Shown here: positions 34,758 through 41,920 of the stretch, one piece after another
Position numbering within the stretch: the stretch's first letter is position 1
How the letters are laid out: each line of letters opens with the position of its first letter
Assembly: GCF_001467695.1 (NCBI RefSeq)
Contig: NZ_LNYE01000029.1
Coordinates: 448,759-512,758 of the forward strand
DNA from: Legionella gratiana
GTDB taxonomy: Bacteria; Pseudomonadota; Gammaproteobacteria; Legionellales; Legionellaceae
Length of the DNA: 64,000 bases
Reading direction: 5' to 3'
The notes under the pieces: model-generated
Database searches by the model: none
What the model was told of the DNA's origin: nothing
The model's input: only the letters and a program-made list of their open reading frames with translations
Made by a program: the position numbers and the translations under genes

Positions 34758-34830
34758 GCCGCTGTAGCTCAGTTGGTAGAGCAGTTGATTCGTAATCAAG
34801 AGGTCGGAGGTTCGACTCCTCTCAGCGGCA
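34758..34830 (+). tRNA. tRNA-Thr (anticodon CGT)
   Basis: The 73-nt cloverleaf has acceptor arms GCCGCTG and CAGCGGC, D-loop AGTTGGTAGA, anticodon loop TTCGTAA (anticodon CGT) and T-arm GAGGTTCGACTCCTC; CCA is not encoded. The top pair of the anticodon stem is a mismatch, as in other bacterial tRNA-Thr(CGT). Such tRNA 3' ends are common island attachment sites. Confidence 0.95.
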
Positions 34831-35124
34831 TGGTAAAATCAATGAGTTACAAATAGAAAGTTAAAAATTGAAAAAATTTGGTACCGTTTTTGGTACCAGT
34901 TTTGAAATGTAATTAATAGACATTAATTGATATCAAAATAACATTAGGTATTCTGGTTCTTTCCCAATTAGGAGCAGCTTTAATCATTCGCAGAACACCC
35001 TAACACGAACCCTATAATTTTCTAAAACCATAAGTTCGGTTTAAATGAGAACAAAATACAATATAAATGATCATTTTGTGAGTTTATATAGATCATAGTG
35101 TAAAAAAACACTCCTTAATATGAT
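34831..35124. other. tRNA-downstream spacer with TTTGGTACC direct repeat
   Basis: TTTGGTACC occurs at 34877-34885 and again at 34889-34897, 47 bp after the tRNA. The rest is AT-rich with no supported frame. A spot just downstream of a tRNA with short direct repeats suggests an old integration site, but no second copy of the tRNA 3' end is seen in the window. Confidence 0.4.
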
Positions 35125-35152
35125 TGTCTTGATCAAATAATAAAATTATAAT
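35125..35152 (+). promoter_or_regulatory. Promoter of the short-peptide operon
   Basis: TTGTCT (35125-35130) and a perfect TATAAT (35147-35152) are 16 bp apart. The peptide's ATG lies 39 bp after the -10 box. Confidence 0.6.
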
Positions 35153-35190
35153 CCAATACTGTTATTCAAGGATATTAATTAGGAGATGTT

Positions 35191-35256
35191 ATGAACGTAT
35201 ATTATTCTAATAGAATTGATACCGACGAAGATAAGGATGAATATATGCCTTGGTAA
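35191..35256 (+). CDS. 21-aa acidic peptide, candidate RiPP precursor
   Basis: A 22-codon frame with an ideal AGGAG (35181-35185) 5 bp before the ATG and its own promoter. The peptide begins MNVYYSNRID, continues with TDEDKD and ends EYMPW: two Tyr near the N-terminus, an acidic middle with seven Asp/Glu in nine residues (10-17), and a Tyr-Met-Pro-Trp tail. There is no Cys, so it is not a lanthipeptide, bottromycin-like azole or methanobactin-type core. A perfect 8-bp hairpin follows 4 bp after the stop, then a 2OG/Fe(II) oxygenase gene. I infer a precursor peptide modified by the oxygenase (for example hydroxylation of Asp, Pro or Trp). It could instead be a regulatory leader peptide, though no repeated codon points that way. 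Confidence 0.6.
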   Translation: MNVYYSNRIDTDEDKDEYMPW

Positions 35257-35260
35257 ATAA

Positions 35261-35285
35261 AGGAGATATAAGTATCTCCTTTTAT
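35261..35285 (+). terminator. Hairpin between peptide and oxygenase genes (partial terminator)
   Basis: AGGAGATA (35261-35268), loop TAAG and TATCTCCT (35273-35280) form a perfect 8-bp stem, followed by TTTATAGTTTTAT. The T-run is interrupted by A, so read-through is likely. Such a hairpin would give more peptide than enzyme mRNA. It also contains the only AGGAG near the oxygenase start. Confidence 0.6.
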
Positions 35286-35299
35286 AGTTTTATATTGAT

Positions 35300-36058
35300 A
35301 TGAAATTAGTTTTTAACAATGATGTTCTAGCGGTCATTGATGATTTCCTGGAGCAACCATCTTTTGAAAAAATTTGGAATTTTATTCAAACTGAAAAATT
35401 CAAGTTTGTTCACTCTTCTAAATGGGTAAATGCTTTTAGTCTCGAGGATGGATCTCCTCTATGGAGCAGCGTTACTATTTCTCATCCTAGGCCGGAAGCT
35501 TGCACAACAGAGAAAGTTTACCCTACAAACTCAACCATTGATTTATTTATAAATGAATTAATTGCAAGATCCTCTGATTATTCTCATTTAATTGGTTTCA
35601 AGGATAGAGATTGGGATTTTTTCTATGCGAGACCTTATCTATATCCTAGAGGATCAGGACTTTCTTGGCATACTGATGGTAAGTATAAAATTTCAGGAGC
35701 CTATGTATATTACTGCCATCCAATTTGGGACATAAATTGGGGAGCTGAATTACTAATAAATCCTACTCCTCAACTTGATTTCGATTATCCTGAAGTGACG
35801 TTAATCAATGATAAGAAGAAAAAAGTAGGGTACCATCTAAATAGCGCTGAATTGAATAAATATGCTGATGATGGAGTTGGATATTATATTGTCCCAAAAC
35901 CCAATAGGTTGGTTATTTTTAAAAATAATATTCTGCACTGCATAAAAAAAGTAGAAAAGGCAGCTGGTAATCATGTAAGAGCATCAATAACGGGTTTTTT
36001 TATGAGCAATGAGAAAATACATGAAACGAAAGAGGCGGAAAAAGAACATTCAATCTAA
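35300..36058 (+). CDS. 2-oxoglutarate/Fe(II)-dependent oxygenase
   Basis: 252 aa with a double-stranded beta-helix prolyl-hydroxylase-like core. Iron ligands: H124 and D126 in SWHTDGK and H213 in NNILHCIKKV. The 2OG-binding basic residue is R227 in HVRASITGFF. Also NRLVIFKNN, the strand that precedes the distal His in this family. Family members hydroxylate, desaturate or cross-link amino acids, peptides or proteins. The N-terminal 90 residues may give substrate specificity. It follows the peptide gene by 43 bp, and the peptide's promoter is the nearest one. No good Shine-Dalgarno lies directly before the ATG, so expression may be low or coupled. Confidence 0.85.
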   Translation: MKLVFNNDVLAVIDDFLEQPSFEKIWNFIQTEKFKFVHSSKWVNAFSLEDGSPLWSSVTISHPRPEACTTEKVYPTNSTIDLFINELIARSSDYSHLIGFKDRDWDFFYARPYLYPRGSGLSWHTDGKYKISGAYVYYCHPIWDINWGAELLINPTPQLDFDYPEVTLINDKKKKVGYHLNSAELNKYADDGVGYYIVPKPNRLVIFKNNILHCIKKVEKAAGNHVRASITGFFMSNEKIHETKEAEKEHSI

Positions 36059-36127
36059 CAATTATTTTAATTAGTTTAGCCCCACCAAATTATAGATAAC
36101 TAATCTGAATATGCTTGGAATTATGAA

Positions 36128-37207
36128 ATGAACTTAGTGCATCAAATCACACCTACACTAGCTCAGGAAAAAGTAAATTTTGTTATCTCAATACCCCATT
36201 CTGACGAGGCAGCTTTATCTAATTTTAAACTTAGAGTAGAGGATATTCCTTATAATGAACAACCAAGCCATTATCAATTTAAAAAATGGTCTTCTTGGTG
36301 TTCGGCTCATTTCTCTTCCTATTACTACTACATTAAGTATAAAAATGCTCTCTTAAGATGTAAGCAATTTTTGTATGACTTTGGACCTTTATCAACATTA
36401 GATCACGCTGCTCTTTACGATCATTGGGTTTGGGAAATGAAACCCCACGTATTGAATCAGGAAAATATTTGTTGGATTGGTTATGACTATTCAAAATCGA
36501 AAACATTAAGTTTTTTATCTCATGGAACTAATATTGAACTTCGTCTTCTTGAAGGAAATTTGAGCGATGAAGAGTTCTTGGAACTTTGTAAATTTTTTTC
36601 TCCTCTTTCATCATCAAGTGAAATCTTAGAAAAGAGTTTTTTTGAACTATCCTATTGGTCACGTTACCGCAACTGCATAGAAAATGCGTGCATTAATAGA
36701 AATGAATATAAACCTCCCTCAAGCATATGGAATTTAAGATGGCCAATGCATAATATCTTTAGAGGCAGCAAGCCGGATTGCTATATCAAGTACTCAAACC
36801 AACTTAACTTAGACTTTATTCCAGATAGCCAAATTATTTATGGTAACGAAAATCAAATAGAAGAAATTCAATTTGTCCTGTTTCCGAAGAATGGAAAGAA
36901 AAATCAAATGGCATGGTTTCGTGTTTTCAATAAAGCCTCTTTTCCAATAAAGAAGCCAGCCCTCTCTAGATTGCCTAGTATGAATTCATTTAGTGGCTAT
37001 AGTAATTTTAATTTAACCGTCTTAAGTCCGAAGAGTAGTATGATTGCGAGCAATATATACATTGCAAGTCTTAATAATTGTTATGGACCACATGATGCCC
37101 TTTGGTGGGATAATGAAAATGCTTATCTACTGCAACTAAGCGCTAGCGCTAATAACTCTATAGCGTATTTGAAGGGAATTCTTTGTCAACTTATAGAAGA
37201 CAAATGA
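36128..37207 (+). CDS. Unrecognised 359-aa protein in the peptide-oxygenase locus
   Basis: No family recognised. No signal peptide or membrane helix. The sequence is rich in aromatic residues (SSYYYYIKYKN, DHWVWEMKP, WWDNENAYL) with dispersed His and Cys. Residues 255-340 look like alternating beta strands. It lies 69 bp after the oxygenase on the same strand, after a short AT-rich gap, so co-transcription is likely. It could be a second tailoring enzyme, a peptide-binding partner or an immunity protein. The neighbouring transporter is convergent. Confidence 0.65.
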   Translation: MNLVHQITPTLAQEKVNFVISIPHSDEAALSNFKLRVEDIPYNEQPSHYQFKKWSSWCSAHFSSYYYYIKYKNALLRCKQFLYDFGPLSTLDHAALYDHWVWEMKPHVLNQENICWIGYDYSKSKTLSFLSHGTNIELRLLEGNLSDEEFLELCKFFSPLSSSSEILEKSFFELSYWSRYRNCIENACINRNEYKPPSSIWNLRWPMHNIFRGSKPDCYIKYSNQLNLDFIPDSQIIYGNENQIEEIQFVLFPKNGKKNQMAWFRVFNKASFPIKKPALSRLPSMNSFSGYSNFNLTVLSPKSSMIASNIYIASLNNCYGPHDALWWDNENAYLLQLSASANNSIAYLKGILCQLIEDK

Positions 37208-37226
37208 TCAATAGATTTATGCACTT

Positions 37227-38060
37227 TTAGTATGGATATATTAAGCTAGCGCCCAAAGCCACTAGGAAGGCTCCAATCCACTGATATTGGGAAATCTTTT
37301 CACCAATAAAATAAGCAAATATTTGTGCAAATACCACGGAGGTATTACGAAGAGTAAGGGCTAGTCCAGCTTCAGAATGACGCAATCCGATTAAAAATAG
37401 CAAGAAGGACAATGCACTTATAATTCCTCCTAGAGAAGTTATTTTCCAATTGGATTTAATTTGCTCTTTGAATACTTGTTTTTGTTCTTTGTTCATCAAA
37501 AGATAAACACAAGGTAAAGCAATCCATAAAGCTGCAGAAAAGAGTGCAGCTGGGTTTGCCCCATATGCTAAAGAACGACCGTAGCATAAATGATAACCAG
37601 CAATGCAGATGCCACATAAAACCGGAAATAATAATTGCCTTGATTGATCGGGGTTAAAAGTTTGGCTTGTAAGTATCAATCCAAAAAGAACTGATGATAC
37701 ACCTATGATATTAGATAAATTTATATTTTCACCAAGGAAACATGCCGAAATAAACCATACAATTATCATGGCGCTTCCTCGCATAATAATGTAGGCCTTC
37801 CCAAGTGAATACTGACTAAGACAAATAGCTAGTGTGATTATATAACCTCCTTCAAATAAACCAGAGGTTAGTGCCCATAAAAAGGAATCAGATGTTTTAA
37901 ATAATGGACCTGAGAAAAAAGGAATAAATACAAGCGAGAATATAGTTGCAAAACTCATAATTCCCAATACTTCGTAATAGGGTGTTGAATTGCGTTTGGC
38001 AAATGTATTCCATGCTGCATGGAGGATTGCGGATAAAATTATAAATACACCAGAACCCAT
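37227..38060 (-). CDS. EamA/DMT-family transporter
   Basis: 277 aa, 9-10 membrane helices, with two tandem EamA halves (LSAILHAAWNTFAKRN at the start and AGLALTLRNTSVVFAQIFAYFIGEK in the second half). DMT proteins mostly export metabolites or small molecules. Its stop is 20 bp from the stop of the 359-aa gene, convergent. Export of the peptide-derived product is possible but not shown. Confidence 0.85.
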   Translation of the reverse strand: MGSGVFIILSAILHAAWNTFAKRNSTPYYEVLGIMSFATIFSLVFIPFFSGPLFKTSDSFLWALTSGLFEGGYIITLAICLSQYSLGKAYIIMRGSAMIIVWFISACFLGENINLSNIIGVSSVLFGLILTSQTFNPDQSRQLLFPVLCGICIAGYHLCYGRSLAYGANPAALFSAALWIALPCVYLLMNKEQKQVFKEQIKSNWKITSLGGIISALSFLLFLIGLRHSEAGLALTLRNTSVVFAQIFAYFIGEKISQYQWIGAFLVALGASLIYPY

Positions 38061-38199: not shown

Positions 38200-38706
38200 T
38201 TAATAGTTCGCAAAAATATATGCCTGTCCACCAAACTCTACCGAACAATAATCACTAATAAAAAGATCCCGAGCAAAAGCTTCAAAATCAAAATAGCAGA
38301 TCAAATTATCCGGCATTTGATGGGCATAACAGTCATCAAATAACTGCCTAGAAAAATCAACCTCTGAATCATAACAACCTTGGTAATGATCCTCCAACAT
38401 GGTTTGTGCATCATCTACCGAATAATCGCAGAGAAGAGCTAAGCCTAGCTCTCCGTGTTCTTTAATAAATGAAGCATACTCCACAATATTACTTATTGAC
38501 TCATACTCATGGATTTTGATGCTGCCGAATCCTTCATAATCGTGTATGGCATATTCTTCAGCATTGGGTTCAGAGCTGTTATCCAGCATTTCCCAGATTT
38601 CTTCCATAATGTCATCTTCGCTTTGTGTGGCATCTATCCAAACACCATGCAGGATGGCACTGTTGTATGAGGCTAAACACGCGACGTAGATTGAAGGGGT
38701 GTCCAT
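38200..38706 (-). CDS. ardA: Antirestriction protein ArdA
   Basis: 168 aa, strongly acidic (a DNA mimic), with SIYVACLASYNSAILHGVW at the start and EYAIHDYEGFG, both ArdA signatures; FDFEAFARDLFISDY near the end. ArdA blocks type I restriction enzymes when an ICE or plasmid enters a new cell. It lies downstream of ssb in the same direction, separated by an inverted repeat. ATCTCCTTG before the start on the plus strand reads CAAGGAGAT on the minus strand, a good ribosome binding site. Confidence 0.95.
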   Translation of the reverse strand: MDTPSIYVACLASYNSAILHGVWIDATQSEDDIMEEIWEMLDNSSEPNAEEYAIHDYEGFGSIKIHEYESISNIVEYASFIKEHGELGLALLCDYSVDDAQTMLEDHYQGCYDSEVDFSRQLFDDCYAHQMPDNLICYFDFEAFARDLFISDYCSVEFGGQAYIFANY

Positions 38707-38771: not shown

Positions 38772-39194
38772 TTAAAACGGAATTTCTTCTGAATCGGTTT
38801 GCAACATTTCACGCATTTGCACCATGTGGTGCTCTGCGGTCTTGTTGCTAGATTCATCAGCAGATTTGAAGTGACTAAGTAGCTGGATATGATTGACGAC
38901 GACGCTTAAGGTTTGATGTGTCTTACCTTCATTGTCAGTCCATTGATTAGAACGCAGTTTACCTTCAAGGTATACTTGCGAACCTTTCTTTAAATATTCA
39001 GCTACTTTGGTAAGTTTTCCAAAAAGCACCAGTTGATGCCATTCCACTCTGGTTTGCCATTCATCATTCTTCTTGAATGATTCATTAGTTGCCAAAGTAG
39101 CGGTGACAAAAGATTGTCCGTCTTTCCCAGTGATGTTTTTGGGATCAGCACCAAGATTGCCAATTAATTGAACCTGGTTTAAAGATGCGGTCAT
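38772..39194 (-). CDS. ssb: Single-stranded DNA-binding protein
   Basis: 140 aa. OB-fold with NQVQLIGNLGADPKN, ATNESFKKN, VEWHQLVLFGKLTKVAEYLKKGS and VYLEGKLRSNQW, then a short acidic tail ending EEIPF, which binds partner proteins. Carried by the ICE to protect and complete transferred single strands; with ardA it forms an early entry pair. GGAG lies 6 bp before the ATG. Confidence 0.96.
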   Translation of the reverse strand: MTASLNQVQLIGNLGADPKNITGKDGQSFVTATLATNESFKKNDEWQTRVEWHQLVLFGKLTKVAEYLKKGSQVYLEGKLRSNQWTDNEGKTHQTLSVVVNHIQLLSHFKSADESSNKTAEHHMVQMREMLQTDSEEIPF

Positions 39195-40221: not shown

Positions 40222-41121
40222 TTAACCGAGGTAACTTTTGGTTATAGATATTCTGGAGTGGCCGAGGTCTCTACTTATAATTTCACGAGCTTCTCTGTCT
40301 ATGGCTTTTTCTGATTGAGATAAATATTTAGATGTTTTTCCACCTTCAATGGGACATTTGAATGGTTGTTTATCAGGCGATAACTGCCTGGTTAAATCGT
40401 GGTATCTTCTTTGAGCATAAGCATGACGCAGACCATGACAATTTTTCAACCCTAACTTTTCTGTCTCAGTTTGATATTGCCTCAGATACTGTTTATAAGT
40501 TTTATTTTTGGGGATCAATGAATGGCCAGGAGAGATTTGTTTTATTGTTTTTTCTAGCCATTCTTTTTGTTCCTTGCTTGTAATATCTATGGCTCTTCCA
40601 ATTCCGCCTTTAGTCCAGCTTGATTTTAATATCAAACGTTCGCCAAACCAAGCTTCGCTTATAACCAATTTCATCGACTCTTCACGACGTAAACCAAAGA
40701 GGTATTGAGCCTCAAGAGATAAGCGTATCATTGGATTTTCGCATTTTGAGAAGTCTATATTAGTGATAGCTTTATTGTATGTGGGTACATAATTTCGGTT
40801 ATCAATTTGATAATAGTCATTGCTAGGTTTGATTATCTCTGGTTTATTAAGCCAGATGGATAATTTCCTGAGTTTAGACATGTAATTTTTGATAGTGGCC
40901 GGATTTTTACCCTGTTTTTTCCAGTACTCTACTAACACATGGATGTGCTTTGATTTTAGTCCCTTGATATGAGCTACCATAAAACCTTGCTCATGCAGAT
41001 CCTTGATGCAACGATTCAATATATGGCGTGTATCAGCTTTACTGGCATGGGAATATACACTTAGTTCTTTGATACATTCGTTGATAGAAAATAGTGCGCT
41101 TTTAAGTTTTGATTTACTCAT
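40222..41121 (-). CDS. Tyrosine recombinase / integrase, apparently intact
   Basis: 299 aa. N-terminal helical SAM-like arm-binding region (to about 115), then the catalytic domain with first Arg in FGLRREES, HGLRHAYAQ (H-x-x-R), LGHSRISITKSYLG (His and the nucleophile Tyr 3 residues before the end). All five usual catalytic positions can be found. The nucleophile Tyr is nearly C-terminal. The gene overlaps the upstream recombinase-like gene by 8 bp, so the two are co-translated. Presumably integrates the ICE, alone or as a pair. Confidence 0.88.
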   Translation of the reverse strand: MSKSKLKSALFSINECIKELSVYSHASKADTRHILNRCIKDLHEQGFMVAHIKGLKSKHIHVLVEYWKKQGKNPATIKNYMSKLRKLSIWLNKPEIIKPSNDYYQIDNRNYVPTYNKAITNIDFSKCENPMIRLSLEAQYLFGLRREESMKLVISEAWFGERLILKSSWTKGGIGRAIDITSKEQKEWLEKTIKQISPGHSLIPKNKTYKQYLRQYQTETEKLGLKNCHGLRHAYAQRRYHDLTRQLSPDKQPFKCPIEGGKTSKYLSQSEKAIDREAREIISRDLGHSRISITKSYLG

Positions 41122-41920
41122 GCAGGTATGTCCATAGTGTGTTGCGAGATTTTATTCCAAGTTCATCCTGTAATATCAAACAGGTTTGATAGTTACCTAA
41201 TATTGGCAGTAAGTATTGATACATTTGTTTTGCATATAGATAACGCCAGGACTTTTTTACGGGTACGTCAAAAGCCATGAGGGTATGATTCCAGCTAAGT
41301 TTGACTTGTTTATAACCAAAAAATTGTACCAAACTTTGTCTATTAGTTAGTTTTTCTAAGTCAGATACGACGTTTTTTTGAATTTCATTTCTGAAAGGGA
41401 TCGTTCTGTCCACCGAGTTAAAAGTGATTTCTCTCGTGAGCGAAAGTTTATGCTCTTTGATATGGATTCCAGGTTTAATCTGTATTGCTTCACTAAAGGT
41501 CAAACCAAACTCTGTTTGTAAGGCCATAATAATGCGTGATGTCATTTCAGAGAACGATTCCCAGAGATTGGGTTGCCATTTTAATCGTTGGGGTTTTAGT
41601 ATTTTTCGATGCAATTGCAGAGACTTGTTGTCTATATTCTGTATTGGACAATTAATGCTTAGTAAATAATTTCTAATAATTGTCATATAACGCATAATTG
41701 TTGCATCTTTAACATGGTTTCTTTTCCAATATCCAACCAGTTTTTGAATATGCTCTGATTTCATGTTTTGCCATGAAGTAGGAACATCTCCAATACGGAA
41801 TAGATCATCAATCATCTTTTGTATGACGTATGCGCGTTTTTTCTTTTCTTGGTAGCTGCCTCGGTTATCAAGTTGAAAGTACCGGTTTGCAGCTTGTCTT
41901 AAGGAATTTTTTCTCATCAT
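41114..41920 (-). CDS. Second tyrosine-recombinase-like protein, catalytic residues incomplete
   Basis: 268 aa, homologous in layout to the downstream 299-aa recombinase (SEHIQKLVGYWKRN parallels SKHIHVLVEYWKKQ; ATIMRYMTIIRNYL parallels ATIKNYMSKLRKL). The first catalytic Arg is missing (FGLTFSEA in place of FGLRREES), and the HxxR motif reads SWRYLYAK with Arg but no His. The final LGIKSRNTLWTYLHE keeps a Tyr but has Lys-Ser in the GHS position. I infer a non-catalytic or weakly active partner, as in paired recombinases, rather than decay, because the frame is intact and overlaps its neighbour. Confidence 0.75.
   Translation of the reverse strand: MMRKNSLRQAANRYFQLDNRGSYQEKKKRAYVIQKMIDDLFRIGDVPTSWQNMKSEHIQKLVGYWKRNHVKDATIMRYMTIIRNYLLSINCPIQNIDNKSLQLHRKILKPQRLKWQPNLWESFSEMTSRIIMALQTEFGLTFSEAIQIKPGIHIKEHKLSLTREITFNSVDRTIPFRNEIQKNVVSDLEKLTNRQSLVQFFGYKQVKLSWNHTLMAFDVPVKKSWRYLYAKQMYQYLLPILGNYQTCLILQDELGIKSRNTLWTYLHE

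Follow-up and report, generated by a model that had tools for sequence, protein, structure and literature searches.

A conserved 21-codon gene paired with a 2-oxoglutarate/Fe(II) oxygenase gene in Legionellaceae: a putative minimal RiPP-like cassette

In the pyrroloquinoline quinone (PQQ) pathway, the precursor PqqA is very short (about 23 residues), has conserved C-terminal residues and is encoded by a small gene ahead of its enzymes. The biarylitides, minimal ribosomally synthesized and post-translationally modified peptides (RiPPs), pair a five-residue precursor with a P450, and their tiny precursor gene is easily missed by annotation, according to PMC13417212. In the TnaC-type arrest leaders, as described in PMC8429421, the C-terminal end of a short frame is conserved, and the frame stands before a terminator-like structure and an operon. 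Here, we analysed a 64,000-nucleotide window of Legionella gratiana (G000:C29:448759-512758, contig NZ_LNYE01000029.1; positions below are window positions unless marked otherwise), in which a 21-codon frame is followed by a hairpin, a 2-oxoglutarate (2OG)/Fe(II) oxygenase gene and the gene of a 359-aa protein. The initial annotation had placed these four parts, the neighbouring tRNA and a convergent EamA transporter gene, and all the positions were reproduced (Table 1). Of the named relatives, Legionella parisiensis comes closest at this locus, with 94% for the 359-aa protein.

As in the biarylitides, a tiny precursor gene is tied to one oxidising enzyme. Unlike them, the cassette has a 2OG-Fe(II) oxygenase instead of a P450, a precursor of 21 to 30 residues and a second, unrelated partner protein. 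The short precursor, its conserved C-terminal residues and the position of its small gene recall the PQQ pathway, whereas the motif differs and a Pfam scan of eight proteins of the window (oxygenase, 359-aa protein, transporter and five proteins encoded in the flanks) detected neither the radical SAM enzyme PqqE nor PqqD. The same scan gave no class-defining family of the MNIO, radical SAM, P450 or YcaO type. A literature search, judged mostly by titles and abstract openings, yielded no description of this peptide or pathway that we recognised. antiSMASH bacteriocin clusters were found in every Legionella species studied in PMC5126622, passages of which do not name this cassette; an overlap with these clusters is possible. 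We conclude that the peptide and the oxygenase form a real, conserved pair, most likely belonging to an undescribed RiPP class or peptide-scaffold pathway.

The 21-codon frame is a protein-coding gene. We compared 24 Legionellaceae loci, i.e. 21 Legionella or Fluoribacter loci, the window, and two loci found via the oxygenase (L094 and L096). All were gathered through the partner protein or the oxygenase, never through the peptide. The last nine residues, EDKDEYMPW, are identical in 24 out of 24 loci, which represent 15 distinct DNA sequences; the search string used for the codon counts requires these nine residues, and all 24 loci matched it, hence none was lost. In codons 13-21, the proportion of non-synonymous differences (pN) is 0 against 0.58 for synonymous ones (pS), and none of the six variable nucleotide columns changes an amino acid (rough chance 2e-6). 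Codons 2-10 vary almost freely (pN/pS 0.9). Because it is conserved at the protein level in all 24 loci, the frame is not a chance one; the protein-level selection on which the initial annotation had staked the peptide, by naming a synonymous-site test, is thus present. A pattern-based scan of 84,980 species genomes with the 359-aa family gave 46 loci, 21 of them in Legionella or Fluoribacter. Among 92 related genomes, the 359-aa protein had matches in 14 (its own genome counted; one of them, G043, holds degenerate pieces only). An oxygenase gene adjoins 16 of the 19 matching loci, and the peptide frame is found in 16/16 of these; 14 give 21-residue peptides, and in the other two (L011 and L012) the stop codon is altered and the frame extends. 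A tblastn search of plasmids with the peptide gave no match, and the peptide pattern had 0 matches over viral contigs.

The pairing was also recovered from the side of the oxygenase. An oxygenase-alignment search and a degenerate DNA pattern of the peptide, run separately over the 92 genomes, led to the same 13 genomes: 17 oxygenase loci, each adjoined by one of 17 peptide matches. The 18 oxygenase rows correspond to 17 loci, one gene being split in two pieces, and L096 holds only an oxygenase fragment. This DNA pattern, too, requires the nine residues, with at most one base changed; the reversed pattern gave no match over the same genomes. The initial annotation had asked whether a short frame always precedes close homologues of the oxygenase, and it does in 21/21 Legionella-type loci as well as in these 17. 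The precursor gene is therefore tied to a candidate modifying-enzyme gene in Legionellaceae genomes, and also in bins of Bdellovibrionales and Elusimicrobia. Separately, some cassette copies have a broken or shortened oxygenase or partner gene and an intact peptide frame (L. parisiensis, L053; L. norrlandica, L051; and L096).

Outside Legionellaceae, the Bdellovibrionales bin (L054) carries, in order, the peptide MKQNKKVVEPKEDIKDVYVPW, a strong hairpin with a T run, an oxygenase (46%) and a 359-aa homologue (34% identity). In the Elusimicrobia bin, the peptide MENKIDDKAKAAHIAEAKAKGEQFPDFVPW is followed by a GC-rich hairpin with a T run and by an oxygenase with 42% identity (L091), and the 359-aa homologue (L052, 36% identity) is on a separate contig from both. 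These peptides end in VYVPW or DFVPW, so that a C-terminal [Y/F]-[M/V]-P-W tail accompanies the oxygenase in three phyla. A frame ending in [YFW]xPW, a motif defined after the Legionella peptide was known, occurred within 200 bases upstream in 1 and 0 of 4000 shuffles. The acidic middle of the peptide, a key feature for the initial annotation, is absent from the Elusimicrobia peptide, and only the [YF]xPW end is common to all; the acidic stretch was accordingly dropped as a candidate for the modified part. Oxygenase-based sampling beyond Legionellaceae was limited in extent. Relatives were rare in these samples and were found at E 1e-25 in 4/369 genomes of the class and 1/198 Elusimicrobiota, and at E 1e-20 in 2/398 genomes of the phylum and 1/5 around the Bdellovibrionales genome (starting genome counted in each). 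In the oxygenase trees, Legionella groups with Bdellovibrionales (83/89) and the Elusimicrobia row takes no firm position; a single clade of all peptide-bearing rows was neither rejected (p-AU 0.44, approximately unbiased test) nor demonstrated. A first tree had placed a long, partial viral row (L085) among the Legionella rows, and a second one was built with six rows fewer (L040, L028, L029, L031, L085 and L132).

The oxygenase matches its Pfam family above the cut-off. Its motif residues, read from the single sequence by the initial annotation, are borne out by an alignment of 16 rows: H124, D126 and H213 are invariant and R227 is present in at least 90%, giving the full HxD...H iron triad and a distal Arg. 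Its nearest fold is tentatively that of prolyl hydroxylases. The top-ranked solved folds for the predicted model are chains of the HIF prolyl hydroxylase PHD2, and the P4H of Pseudomonas putida comes at rank 33 (template modelling score about 0.5; predicted local distance difference test, pLDDT, 64). The oxygenase shares the HxD...H...R motif with these enzymes, and the peptide has a conserved proline; on the side of the differences, the identity is about 15%, on a modest model, and the substrate is putative. A sequence search of solved structures gave no match for the oxygenase. WelO5-kind halogenases have a Gly at the position equivalent to D126; D126 therefore speaks against a halogenase of this type, to which the match was only sub-threshold. 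PHROGs matches (E down to 1.1e-13) carry the label DNA endonuclease V.

Distant relatives of the oxygenase were matched in 17 plasmid records, and seven loci (L025-L031) were inspected, four of which are RiPP or bacteriocin settings. The relative adjoins an MNIO enzyme (PF05114) and a Cys-containing precursor-like frame in L026. On a Serratia liquefaciens plasmid (L027, 3996-7947), a three-repeat precursor, a TP_methylase, a 308-aa protein with no Pfam match, the oxygenase relative and an MFS exporter make up an apparent cluster of the split-borosin type that includes a 2OG oxygenase. A PqqD protein lies beside an unannotated oxygenase piece in L030, and a C39-peptidase ABC exporter is found in the neighbourhood in L025. 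No RiPP gene was recognised in L028, L029 and L031. The cassette resembles the MNIO and borosin-like clusters by the L026 and L027 homologues (36-37% identity); it differs from them in its unrelated precursor and in having no modifying enzyme that we could recognise other than the oxygenase. Two further observations concern such relatives: an annotated IMI-type carbapenemase gene lies near that of a Serratia ureilytica plasmid (L025, 2422-3300), and the viral L132 is a 595-aa oxygenase fusion, the first half of which is glycosyltransferase-like by eye.

The 359-aa protein had no match in Pfam or NCBIfam up to E 1. It is predicted to consist of two domains, with a general likeness to RseB (C-terminal-like) and to PsbP (Mog1/PsbP-like). 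A sequence search of solved structures gave chance-level cathepsin D matches only, and the one PHROGs match is weak and of unknown function. No match was found in phages by tblastn, and none of the family was confirmed in viral contigs. Because its distant relatives occur in Streptomyces biosynthetic clusters and in haloarchaea, the immunity role considered by the initial annotation looks unlikely. In Streptomyces (L002 and L003), these relatives stand with annotated metallo-beta-lactamase (MBL)-fold, AsnB, SUMF1-like, pyridoxal phosphate-type and pyridoxamine-oxidase-like genes. By eye, the gene next to the relative is pyridoxamine-oxidase-like in a Rhodobacteraceae bin (L074) and in Stappia (L075), and an MBL-like gene lies nearby in L074. 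These neighbourhoods are possibly those of an undescribed pathway.

The cassette probably yields a RiPP-like peptide, in which a precursor would be oxidised near its C-terminus by the prolyl-hydroxylase-like enzyme. The 21-residue peptide would be the precursor, its variable N-terminal part serving as leader or spacer and its conserved [Tyr/Phe]-[Met/Val]-Pro-Trp tail carrying the modified site. Our first guess is a hydroxylation of the invariant proline by the Fe(II)/2OG oxygenase, and our second guess an oxidation of the terminal tryptophan. A leaky terminator 3' of the peptide gene would hold the peptide in excess of the enzyme, and the two-domain 359-aa protein might bind, process or further modify the peptide. 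Cleavage and export would rely on general cell machinery, or on the EamA transporter in some strains. On balance, we lean slightly towards a minimal RiPP class in the full sense, i.e. a single prolyl-hydroxylase-like 2OG oxygenase acting on the tail of a 21-30 residue peptide, assisted by a two-domain protein from an undescribed family; this class would occur in three phyla and travel among Legionella species on integrative elements. Several points weigh against this. The product and the modification of the peptide are so far putative, and the prolyl-hydroxylase likeness is tentative because of the modest confidence of the oxygenase model. No leader peptidase was recognised among the eight scanned proteins, and no exporter is constant. 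Both pair-bearing loci outside Legionellaceae are metagenome bins, and only two such genomes were found. Scans for short frames near distant oxygenases revealed no such peptide on plasmids (L025-L031), in viral loci (L078-L088 and L133, the latter for frames preceded by a Shine-Dalgarno in 1.5 kb upstream; L132, L134 and L135 fell outside the viral scans) or in L095 of genome G178; a PW-ending frame with a Shine-Dalgarno-like site at L028 7090-7173 was dropped, as it lies inside an annotated reductase gene. In three Legionella genomes, the stop after Trp is lost (L036, 7066; L037, 7066; L047, 7068) and LS[MK]EI is added. Finally, the conserved C-terminal end, the freer N-terminus, the Pro-Trp-stop and the hairpin past the stop would suit ribosome stalling.

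The peptide could indeed be a TnaC-type regulatory leader and not a substrate: a ribosome stalled at Pro-Trp-stop would prevent termination at the hairpin and turn on the oxygenase operon. The layout is that of such leaders, a frame with a conserved C-terminal end and a nearly free N-terminus ahead of a terminator-like hairpin and an operon. In the window, stop and hairpin are only two bases apart, no clear Shine-Dalgarno was seen ahead of the oxygenase start, and the hairpin is the 1 terminator-like site found, against 0.0 expected from shuffles. It is strong (z -3.4 or lower) in 17/24 Legionellaceae loci and recurs in the Bdellovibrionales and Elusimicrobia loci, i.e. in two other phyla. A strict attenuator, as defined here, would carry a terminator structure behind the frame at all loci; 17/24 have one. 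In the other seven, which show four different sequence forms, the hairpin is absent and the nine-residue end of the peptide is unchanged, which, like the three lost stops after Trp, weakens the reading as a strict attenuator; together, these data would suit a leaky terminator holding the precursor in excess. Moreover, the strong stem in Bdellovibrionales begins about 20 bases past the stop, i.e. beyond the usual ribosome footprint. Unlike known leaders, the peptide adjoins one kind of oxygenase in three phyla, even where the 359-aa gene lies elsewhere, and relatives of this oxygenase occur in RiPP settings. We therefore regard a regulatory leader as improbable.

Another possibility, which overlaps with the favoured oxidation of the precursor as a sub-case of it, is that the peptide serves as a scaffold: once oxidised, it would release a small molecule (a cofactor, a metal-binding compound or a modified amino acid) by cleavage, as in the PqqA and 3-thiaglutamate pathways, and the end product would not be a peptide. 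The precursor is very short and its end almost invariant within the family, whereas the cores of antimicrobial RiPPs are often variable; small metabolites are frequent substrates of EamA exporters, and the 359-aa relatives occur in Streptomyces clusters rich in amino-acid-type enzymes. However, no radical SAM enzyme, peptide ligase or dedicated peptidase was found among the eight scanned proteins, and we consider a scaffold rather unlikely. Short peptides beside enzymes can also be regulatory subunits, and since modification of the peptide is putative, it might act unmodified, as a signal, a toxin or a regulator of the oxygenase protein, the enzyme using a separate metabolite. This seems highly improbable: the RiPP settings of the oxygenase relatives, and the pairing of a prolyl-hydroxylase-like enzyme with a peptide whose Pro beside Trp is invariant, fit a substrate better.

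Regarding expression signals, promoter-like sites are not more numerous than expected by chance (3 in the region vs. 3.3 from shuffles), and TATAATC is conserved in 15/16 aligned loci. The Shine-Dalgarno of the peptide has the form AAGGAGATGTTATG in 13/16 aligned loci, the other three, window included, differing by one base. An Rfam scan around the peptide gave only two matches, both far below gathering scores.

Table 1. Features of the cassette and its flanks in the L. gratiana window
Feature	Position	Strand	Basis
tRNA-Thr (CGT), apparent integration site of the cassette-carrying mobile element	34758..34830	+	ARAGORN; 24-base 3'-end repeat
Promoter-like site TTGTCT-17-TATAAT	35124..35152	+	10/12 matches; TATAATC conservation
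Shine-Dalgarno of the peptide, AGGAGAT	35181..35187	+	Sequence; alignment
Putative precursor peptide, 21 aa, MNVYYSNRIDTDEDKDEYMPW	35191..35256 (ATG 35191, stop TAA 35254-35256)	+	Conservation
Terminator-like hairpin in the peptide/oxygenase gap	35259..35282	+	Shuffle comparison; locus survey
2OG-Fe(II) oxygenase, 252 aa, PF13640, H124/D126/H213/R227	35300..36058	+	Pfam E 1.6e-8; alignment; predicted fold
359-aa partner protein without Pfam family	36128..37207	+	Two predicted domains, general likeness to RseB and PsbP
Convergent gene of an EamA-type transporter, optional	37227..38060	-	PF00892 E 2.6e-21
ArdA antirestriction protein, mobile-element-type neighbour	38200..38706	-	PF07275 E 7.8e-40
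Single-strand binding protein	38772..39194	-	PF00436 E 1.9e-28
Two tyrosine-recombinase-like genes, overlapping, in tandem	40222..41121 and 41114..41920	-	PF12834 and PF12835; PF12834

We then considered the surroundings of the cassette. Twenty-four bases of the tRNA-Thr 3' end recur about 111 kb downstream on the same contig (G000:C29:483565 and 594562). These direct repeats appear to mark the two ends of an integrative element, about 111 kb long, that starts just before the cassette; element ends were sought only in the genome of the window. The cassette would thus lie at the tRNA end of this apparent element, followed by ArdA, the single-strand binding protein (SSB) and the two recombinase-like genes; the genes beyond the recombinases are conjugation-type by eye. 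Within the available flanks of 22 Legionella-type loci, homologues of ArdA were found in 16, of SSB in 14, of the recombinase in 12 and of EamA in 10 (for L045, counted among the remaining 12, the contig stops too early to decide), which suggests that such integrative elements frequently carry the cassette. The transporter, a defining part of the pathway in the initial annotation, was dropped from the core cassette as it is a neighbour in fewer than half of these loci.

If this reading is true, the cassette would represent a RiPP class in which a single enzyme and a single 21-residue peptide may suffice for all of the chemistry; peptides of this size tend to be skipped by automatic gene finders. 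The conserved four-residue tail can serve as a query in searches and as a substrate on which a bacterial prolyl-hydroxylase-like enzyme could be tested directly. The cassette would also provide a lead to the function of the Pfam-less 359-aa family, which spans from Legionella to Streptomyces and haloarchaea.

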